Below are positions 10,735-49,741 of a stretch of DNA of 50,537 nucleotides, one piece after another. A program made the position numbers and the translations under genes. Every line of letters begins with the position of its first letter. Position 1 is the stretch's first letter. This DNA comes from Candidatus Nitrosopumilus sp. (GTDB lineage: Archaea; Thermoproteota; Nitrososphaeria; Nitrososphaerales; Nitrosopumilaceae): positions 1-50,537 of the forward strand of contig JAPFQF010000013.1 of assembly GCA_029255365.1 (NCBI GenBank), in the 5' to 3' direction. Under the pieces are notes generated by a model that was not told the DNA's origin, ran no database searches, and was given only the letters and a program-made list of their open reading frames with translations.

Positions 10735-11478
10735 TCATTTTATTGATTCCCCTCCGTCCACAGTCAGTATTGCACCCGTGGTCCATGACGCATCATCTGA
10801 TGCAAAATATAGAACCGCTTTTCCTATTTCCTCAGGCTGCCCAATTCTTCCAATTGGATGCTCACTGTCCATGAATTCCTTGTCTTTCTCAGTTTTCAAA
10901 AACGGTTTTGTCATGTCAGTATCTACTACCCCAGGGCAAATACAGTTGACTCTAATTTTGTCTTTGGAGTATTCGAGAGCCCAGCATTTAGTTAGCAGAA
11001 TCAATGCGGCTTTTGATGCGGAATATGCATCTGCATTGAATCCTTGATATGCCTTTATTCCGGCATCCGATGAAATGTTAATTATTGAACCAGATGTTTT
11101 TTGCAAATGAGGTATGGCCTCCTTGGTAAATCTAAACTGGCCTGTAAGATTTACATCCAAAACCTCATTCCATTCATCTTCGTCAATTTCATGCAATTTT
11201 TTTATTTTTGGAAAAATTCCCGCATTGTTGACAAGAATATCCAGTTTACCAAATTTTTCAATTGTGTTGCTTACAACATTTTTTACATCATTTGTATTTC
11301 TAATGTCAGCTGCAATACCTGTCGCATTGGGAATTTCTTTTACTGCGTTTTCCAACCTTTTTTCATCTTTTGCAGTAATTACAACTGTAGCCCCGTTTTC
11401 TGATAGAATTTTTGCAGTCGCCAACCCTATCCCACGACTGCCGCCAGTTACTAATGCAATTTTGCCAGATAATCTCAA
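10735..11478 (-). CDS. Short-chain dehydrogenase/reductase
   Basis: A 247-residue classical SDR: NAD(P) motif TGGSRGIG at about 12-19, NNAG, the catalytic Ser of INISSDAG, and YSASK with catalytic Tyr and Lys. The C-terminal WTTGAILTVDGG is typical of FabG/glucose-dehydrogenase-like enzymes. Cofactor choice is uncertain. The substrate cannot be told from sequence, and neighbours give no hint. Confidence 0.85.
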   Translation of the reverse strand: MRLSGKIALVTGGSRGIGLATAKILSENGATVVITAKDEKRLENAVKEIPNATGIAADIRNTNDVKNVVSNTIEKFGKLDILVNNAGIFPKIKKLHEIDEDEWNEVLDVNLTGQFRFTKEAIPHLQKTSGSIINISSDAGIKAYQGFNADAYSASKAALILLTKCWALEYSKDKIRVNCICPGVVDTDMTKPFLKTEKDKEFMDSEHPIGRIGQPEEIGKAVLYFASDDASWTTGAILTVDGGESIK

Positions 11479-11580: not shown

Positions 11581-11590
11581 ATTTTAAATA
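11581..11590 (+). promoter_or_regulatory. TATA box of the candidate structured RNA
   Basis: attttaaata lies in an AT-rich promoter stretch on the plus strand. A start 25 bases downstream would fall near 11611, just ahead of the hairpin-rich segment. No plus-strand protein gene of normal size follows before the convergent gene at 11743. Confidence 0.5.
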
Positions 11591-11610
11591 CTTCAAGTTA
11601 CTATACTTAA

Positions 11611-11744
11611 CAATGTCGAAAGATGTAATTGCTATCGACTAAACATGCGTTGCCCCGCAGAACGAAAAATGTGTTCAGTTGTTTGACAACTGACTAAGAG
11701 AGGAAATCTCTCATTGTTCTGTAACAAAGGGGTACACGCCTTTT
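11611..11744 (+). ncRNA. Candidate structured non-coding RNA
   Basis: About 134 bases with strong self-pairing. A closing stem of three segments pairs 11647-11650 with 11736-11739 (GCGT/ACGC), 11652-11656 with 11729-11733 (GCCCC/GGGGT) and 11658-11663 with 11716-11721 (CAGAAC/GTTCTG). It encloses two hairpins: CAGTTGT/ACAACTG (11676-11682/11686-11692) and GAGAG/CTCTC (11698-11702/11708-11712). A 5' hairpin GTCGA/TCGAC (11615-11619/11635-11639) precedes it. A TATA box lies at the right distance and a T-rich run follows. It does not look like tRNA, 5S, SRP, RNase P, C/D or H/ACA RNA. Family unknown. Confidence 0.6.
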
Positions 11745-11750
11745 AATTTT
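11740..11750 (+). terminator. T-rich run after the candidate RNA
   Basis: The closing stem ends at 11739 and is followed at once by cttttaatttt. Archaeal RNA polymerase terminates on T tracts, so this fits the 3' end of the plus-strand RNA. It also covers the stop codon of the convergent gene, so the two transcripts would meet here. Confidence 0.4.
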
Positions 11751-12186
11751 CTAAGATATCCACAGACACAGATCCTAGTGTTTCCGTGTTTGGATTAATT
11801 GTAATTGAGAGTTCCTGCATTTCTAAAACAAAAATATTCTTCTGTCCGTCATAATCCCATGTAAAATACTCTGAGATTCCAGTTTGATGTGACGTTCCTA
11901 TCAGCTTAAAATCTTCAGAATAATCAAACGTATCTCCACTCAATGTAATTGATAAAATTTTTGGGCTGCTGCCGTTAGGAACAAATCTGAACAAATATTC
12001 TCCTTTCTCCAGAGTAAATTTTTCAGTATAAACACCATTGACGTATAGATCAGGATCTGCAAGTGTTATGTGAAATAAAATATTGGTCTTTTCGCCAGTT
12101 TCATTTGAAGAAAAACCCACCAAAACTATTACCAATATGACAACCATGGAAATCATGATTATTTTTTTATTCAATAAAATATTCAT
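11743..12186 (-). CDS. Membrane-anchored exported protein of unknown function
   Basis: 147 residues. A basic start followed by a strong hydrophobic segment (about residues 8-25, IIMISMVVILVIVLVG) acts as a signal anchor. The remainder is beta-rich with alternating polar/hydrophobic strands and aromatic residues (EYLFRFVPNG, EYFTWDYDGQ), like a small extracellular beta sandwich. No cysteine or enzyme motif is visible. No family recognised. Confidence 0.65.
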   Translation of the reverse strand: MNILLNKKIIMISMVVILVIVLVGFSSNETGEKTNILFHITLADPDLYVNGVYTEKFTLEKGEYLFRFVPNGSSPKILSITLSGDTFDYSEDFKLIGTSHQTGISEYFTWDYDGQKNIFVLEMQELSITINPNTETLGSVSVDILEN

Positions 12187-12735: not shown

Positions 12736-13377
12736 ATGCCTGGTTTATCCGACAAATGGACAAAGCAATCAAAGCCCAGCATTGCTGAACAAATCAATGA
12801 CACTATCAAGCCTAAAGGTGCCTTGAAACCAAGAGTTCAGGAAGGAATCAAAAAGTTACAATTACAAATTAAAAAATTAGATACCATGCTATCAAGTTTA
12901 CAAGCACGCGATGCAAAACTATTCCAACGAATCGTAGTTGCGATACAAACACACGACAACCATACAGCCAAAGTTCTTGGAAATGAGCTAGGTGAAGTAA
13001 GAAAAGTGACAAAAATTCTAAGCAGTGCCAGAATTGCATTAGAACAAATAGAATTACGATTATCCACATGCAGTGATCTCGGAGATACCGTGGTAGCCAT
13101 GATGCCTACAATGGGATTGATGAGGAATCTCAAGTCATCCCTTGGAAAAGTTATGCCGGGAGCTGAGCAAGAAATTGGCCAGATGGCAGAAATGCTTGGA
13201 GGCTTTATGACGGAAAGTTTCTCAGGGGATGCGGCATTTGGAATGGATACGACAACCAACGCGGAATCTGAAAGTATACTGAAAGAAGCCGCTGCCGTTG
13301 CTGAAAGTTCAGTAGGACAAATGTTCCCTTCAGTTCCAACAGATACTCACCAAGCAACCAGCAGCAAATATTTTTAA
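12736..13377 (+). CDS. CdvB-family ESCRT-III-like protein (paralogue 1)
   Basis: A 213-residue Snf7/ESCRT-III fold: a basic helical hairpin (residues about 20-110, KPRVQEGIKKLQLQIKKLDT and helix 2 with RKVTKILSSARIALEQIELR), then acidic helices. ESCRT-III filaments constrict the membrane during division of these archaea with CdvA and the ATPase CdvC/Vps4. The C-terminal tail has FPSVP, also present in the paralogue at 37083, a possible MIM-like contact for the MIT domain of CdvC. It stands alone, away from any cdvA or cdvC gene in the window. Confidence 0.88.
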   Translation: MPGLSDKWTKQSKPSIAEQINDTIKPKGALKPRVQEGIKKLQLQIKKLDTMLSSLQARDAKLFQRIVVAIQTHDNHTAKVLGNELGEVRKVTKILSSARIALEQIELRLSTCSDLGDTVVAMMPTMGLMRNLKSSLGKVMPGAEQEIGQMAEMLGGFMTESFSGDAAFGMDTTTNAESESILKEAAAVAESSVGQMFPSVPTDTHQATSSKYF

Positions 13378-49667: not shown

Positions 49668-49741
49668 TGCGGAGTGCGGGATTTGAACCCGCGGCCTTCA
49701 GCTTGGGAAGCTGACATCTTACCAGGCTAGACAAACTCCGC
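49668..49741 (-). tRNA. tRNA-Gly (anticodon CCC)
   Basis: A full cloverleaf on the minus strand: acceptor GCGGAGT/ACTCCGC, anticodon stem TCAGC/GCTGA with loop TTCCCAA (anticodon CCC), T-arm GCGGGTTCAAATCCCGC, discriminator A. CCA is not encoded. There is no intron in the anticodon loop. The TATA-like element at 49764-49773 lies about 27 bases upstream. Confidence 0.95.

Follow-up and report, generated by a model that had tools for sequence, protein, structure and literature searches.

A block on the plus strand of the window, a 50,537-nucleotide stretch of DNA from Candidatus Nitrosopumilus sp., is, judged by its sequence, the gene of a stand-alone structured RNA with promoter-like and terminator-like signals. 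The folded RNA appears to be previously uncatalogued and would represent a new family, confined to Nitrosopumilaceae as far as sampled. We propose, with roughly an even chance of being right, that it exemplifies a new family of stand-alone, ribosome-engaged and dual-function-like structured RNAs, in which what matters would be the translation of a leaderless start-stop frame, and not the peptide that it encodes.

Locus and fold of the RNA

As the preliminary description of this DNA had stated, the block lies between an SDR gene (10735-11478, minus strand) and a convergent gene (11743..12186, minus strand). The latter encodes a 147-aa protein with a hydrophobic N-terminus and without a Pfam family, similar to the neighbour found at this locus, which we call locus A, in several other genera. 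The TATA box already placed ahead of the block reads TTTAAATA at 11583..11590 (plus strand), and an in-register T[AT]AAATA-like box is present in nearly all copies of the RNA. Among the copies, the commonest spacing between the first base of this box and the start codon of a mini-ORF is 29 nt. In archaea, transcription is expected to start at about this distance from the TATA box; since the AUG mostly falls on the expected start site, the transcript is predicted to be leaderless. The T run noted after the stem, TTTTAATTTT at 11741..11750 (plus strand), directly follows it and is the presumed terminator, with nearly all copies being U-rich at their 3' end; what had escaped attention is that the convergent gene overlaps this run by a few bases. 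The predicted transcript spans 11613-11746, about 134 nt.

The downstream gene, called mechanically at 137 loci, is convergent in 119 and a same-strand ORF in 18, an arrangement which argues that the RNA is not a leader: a cis-regulatory leader or riboswitch would be expected to precede a gene of the same orientation throughout. The suggestion of an independent RNA of about 134 nt is thus sustained by its own promoter-like and terminator-like signals, its convergent neighbour and its conservation in relatives. This picture was incomplete in that it overlooked the two or three paralogs per genome, the family-wide spread and the conserved mini-ORF, the last of which makes the RNA probably more than a plain non-coding one. 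In one subclade (L026, L033, L037, L042 and L148), the usual convergent gene is replaced by an ORF on the same strand, about 186 codons long, which follows the RNA within about 70 nt. In the window, the gene beyond the convergent one (12736-13377) has a weak Snf7 (ESCRT-III/CdvB-like) match below the Pfam cut-off; G036 and G112 have a similar gene close to locus A.

The predicted fold on the plus strand comprises helices P0 to P4. P0 (11615-11622 with 11632-11639) is located inside the mini-ORF and was missing from the earlier account, which was otherwise correct in outline. The closing stem (11647-11663 with 11716-11739), proposed there in three segments, is recovered in both the minimum-energy and the centroid fold. 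It consists of P1, with its 5' strand at 11647..11656 and its 3' strand, GGGG and ACGC, at 11729..11739, and of P2, with its 5' strand, GCAGAAC, at 11657..11663 and its 3' strand at 11716..11722. An A-rich single-stranded joint (11664..11674), GAAAAAGG in most sister copies, is nearly invariant within the genus, though not across genera. Both hairpins of the earlier account are present in the fold, the first (P3, 11675..11693) starting one base earlier than given and the second (P4, GAGAG-GAAAU-CUCUC, 11698..11712) exactly as given; P4 is the best conserved internal element. The 134-nt predicted transcript folds at -43.3 kcal/mol, as compared to -26.0 +/- 3.4 for its dinucleotide shuffles (z = -5.07; 0 of 200 as good). 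P4 may be likened to a Shine-Dalgarno sequence; a pattern search for the 16S 3' end gave no match. Pairing of the GAAAAAGG joint with a CCUUUU tail was considered and rejected, as no compensatory change could be seen by eye where the tail is CCAUUU.

The stems are kept in relatives, with compensatory changes in every helix from P0 to P4. In a 77-copy alignment, two-sided changes are seen in 29 of 36 pairs and amount to 205 cells, against 61 in shuffled alignments and 12-67 with slid partners. Under a tree-based null (our own implementation, in the manner of R-scape), nine pairs are significant in the diverse alignment A4, and all of them fall within the helices proposed here (P1, two pairs; P2, one; P3, four; P4, two). 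This diversity is needed for the signal, as the mainly within-genus alignment A3 is weak and gives two significant pairs, one of them in the structure. No P0 pair is significant under this null in A4, despite compensatory changes in all 8 of its pairs (alignments A2 and A3). Finally, G-U pairs outnumber A-C mismatches (225 versus 85 cells), which supports the plus strand as the transcribed one.

Distribution, paralogs and known RNA classes

A DNA search detects the RNA in nearly all genomes of the window's genus, often in two copies, and a first covariance model, built from 52 copies, extends it to 221 of 250 Nitrosopumilaceae genomes with 1-4 copies each. Restricting the count to good-quality genomes gives 125 of 131; of the 22 genera, 18 have the RNA. 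With a second covariance model the RNA is present in all 37 genomes of one distant genus, in up to four copies each; a second distant genus has it in 23 of 31 genomes. These counts are to be read with the incompleteness of many genomes, the rough E-values of home-made models and the relatedness of the copies in mind. Genomes sampled from the other families of this order and class gave no match, so that, within this sample, the distribution has a boundary. Among named relatives, those that have the exact core belong mostly to Nitrosopumilus, Nitrosarchaeum and Nitrosomarinus; a few pattern matches fall in bacteria, for example in Pseudomonas.

The source genome holds three paralogs: A, the window locus; B (G000:C49:19420-19555); and C, between aroC and aroA (L104:3970-4140, that is, about 105450-105620 of contig C41 of G000). 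Locus A is syntenic in several genera, with an SDR or another gene on one side and, on the other, the convergent gene, which encodes a small protein whose N-terminus is hydrophobic. Paralog C comes with a TATA box and a nine-codon frame of its own; its body is divergent, yet 14 of 23 searched genomes from the genus retain it. In the distant L120 genus, two copies about 8.5 kb apart lie in opposite orientation (for example G202:C1, 26949-27080 and 35556-35687). Several draft contigs (L003, L023, L025, L043 and L209) terminate inside or very near a copy, perhaps because paralogs break assemblies. A viral origin is disfavoured by the synteny of locus A; the two matches on viral contigs, which carry phage-like replication genes, lie in or beside coding genes and concern the search pattern only.

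The earlier claim that the RNA is unlike known classes holds against Rfam 15, none of whose families matches the window block or its divergent copies at the gathering cut-off. The sole sub-threshold match is GlsR10 on the opposite strand (E 1.3; 15.7 against 75 bits). Archaeal SRP RNA (RF01857) and RNase P RNA (RF00373) each have one strong match, at another place, in every one of six genomes, and ARAGORN, which covers tRNA and tmRNA, reports only a tRNA-Gly at 49668-49741. We found no description of this RNA, nor of a small RNA of this kind in Nitrosopumilaceae, in the open literature, a scope that leaves out most subscription papers and preprints, where an earlier description is possible.

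A conserved frame with a drifting peptide

The nine-codon ORF at the 5' end of the block (11613..11642, plus strand), which the preliminary description had passed over, reads ATG TCG AAA GAT GTA ATT GCT ATC GAC TAA (MSKDVIAID*) and is predicted to be leaderless. Of the 133 distinct copies, 132 have such a short frame, beginning where transcription is predicted to start. Exactly nine codons are found in 100 of these 132 frames and 8-10 in 129; under another start rule, some copies gave odd lengths. Start codons are ATG in 127, TTG in 3 and GTG in 2, stop codons TAA in 76, TAG in 35 and TGA in 21, and the stop codon mostly ends 3-4 nt 5' of the closing helix P1. When the frame is shifted by one or two, only 19 and 16 copies pass, respectively, and a null with shuffled interiors and the same search freedom gives a pass rate of 0.31 per copy; the search itself allows some freedom in start and stop position, and the copies are related to one another. 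When as many substitutions as were observed are simulated along the tree, 18.8 +/- 8.5 of 52 tips keep an intact frame (maximum 46 in 2000 runs) versus 52 of 52 observed; this null is somewhat generous to the ORF, since it ignores base pairing.

The frame also persists in class C, where P0 is weak: a script finds nine codons in 12 of 15 copies, and nine can be read by eye in the remaining three, in which the TATA box had escaped recognition or the start codon is GTG. Indels of whole codons occur. Substitutions are distributed 38/42/29 over the three codon positions, and this lack of a third-position excess argues that the peptide is not what is kept. Peptides are alike within classes (MSKDIIPID, MSLVVKSGD, MQNRVNYNE) and different between paralogs and genera. 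The family thus agrees with dual-function sRNAs in that a small ORF is conserved inside a stand-alone RNA with a defined fold, whereas the encoded peptide drifts.

Proposed mechanism and alternatives

We propose a model in which transcription would start at or beside the AUG, so that a ribosome could bind at the leaderless 5' end, open P0 and read the nine codons. It would then halt against or inside P1, and the engaged ribosome would gate how the P1-P4 body folds, how stable it is or how active; this body in turn may serve as a regulatory RNA that acts in trans and associates with ribosomes. Translation as such is likely to be what matters because start, length and stop are kept while the peptide drifts. 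Among the conceivable roles, that of a ribosome-associated regulator acting in trans seems the most likely. A more specific version, which we put forward tentatively, is that the leaderless frame of about nine codons purely serves to park or pass one ribosome, the translation state being read out through the folding of the trans-acting body. The constancy of the frame could be partly structural, since it overlaps a conserved hairpin.

This last point leads to the alternative of a plain trans-acting non-coding sRNA, whose body pairs with mRNAs or binds a protein. The mini-ORF would then arise incidentally, from an AUG that coincides with the start site, a 5' hairpin whose length is constant, and a linker containing UAR/UGA. 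The covariation of P0, the drift of a peptide whose third positions are no freer than the others and the good conservation of the A-rich joint and P4 within the genus are all consistent with this alternative. We nevertheless regard it as rather doubtful, given the contrast between 132 of 133 copies in frame and the 19 and 16 that pass with shifted frames, the use of all three stops and of TTG and GTG starts, the whole-codon indels, and the third paralog class, which retains nine codons with a weak P0. The converse possibility, a tiny mRNA whose product is the nine-residue peptide and whose folded 3' part acts as stabiliser and terminator, would account for the conserved start, stop and length and for the similarity of peptides within each class; it is improbable in view of the variation between paralogs and genera, the absence of a codon-position bias and a body more conserved than a terminator needs.

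The position of the stop codon 3-4 nt before P1, itself a terminator-like stem, recalls a translation-sensitive attenuator, in which the ribosome's position would set termination at P1 and the U tract, and read-through would produce an RNA antisense to the convergent neighbour. The T tract indeed overlaps the end of the convergent gene at locus A in several genera. Paralogs B and C, however, face unrelated genes, including aroA, and have the same frame and a related body, which makes such control unlikely, if slightly less so than the peptide-coding explanation. Least probable, and very unlikely, is that the block is nothing more than a terminator, or that it acts in cis as the leader (riboswitch or attenuator) of a gene downstream: a stem is followed by a U tract, and a same-strand ORF occurs within about 70-130 nt in some lineages (L026, L028, L033, L037, L042, L112), but the gene orientation described above (119 of 137 loci convergent), the TATA box of its own and covariation throughout the body all speak against it.

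The ribosome-engaged RNA that we favour has partial counterparts. Its layout, although no homology is claimed, recalls that of sRNA154 of Methanosarcina mazei, a proposed dual-function RNA with a leaderless 20-residue ORF highly conserved in Methanosarcina (PMC11456600): both are archaeal sRNAs with a leaderless (here predicted) small ORF at the 5' end, whereas the present family has about nine codons, a drifting peptide, several paralogs and another lineage. Haloferax volcanii has sRNAs with ribosome occupancy, most of them without evidence of coding potential (PMC12482152). These share with our RNA an archaeal origin and ribosome engagement (here a prediction), but were defined by Ribo-seq in another lineage, while ours is defined by a conserved fold and frame. 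Like the orphan structured RNA motifs of Weinberg et al. 2010 (PMC2864571), it is lineage-specific, supported by covariation, likely trans-acting and without an assigned function; it differs by its conserved mini-ORF, and neither Nitrosopumilus nor Cenarchaeum appears in the text of that paper. In leader-peptide attenuators, too, a short ORF stops just ahead of a terminator-like stem, but most loci here are without a downstream sense gene.

The combination of a conserved frame and a drifting peptide raises a concrete question, namely how translation is coupled to the folding of the RNA. In the ocean, Nitrosopumilaceae rank among the most abundant archaea and are central to nitrification, and the retention of the RNA in nearly all their good-quality genomes suggests that it is likely important to them. 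If a parked or passing ribosome does control the folding of the body, the RNA would allow the translation state to be sensed, for example during starvation of a slow-growing ammonia oxidizer.
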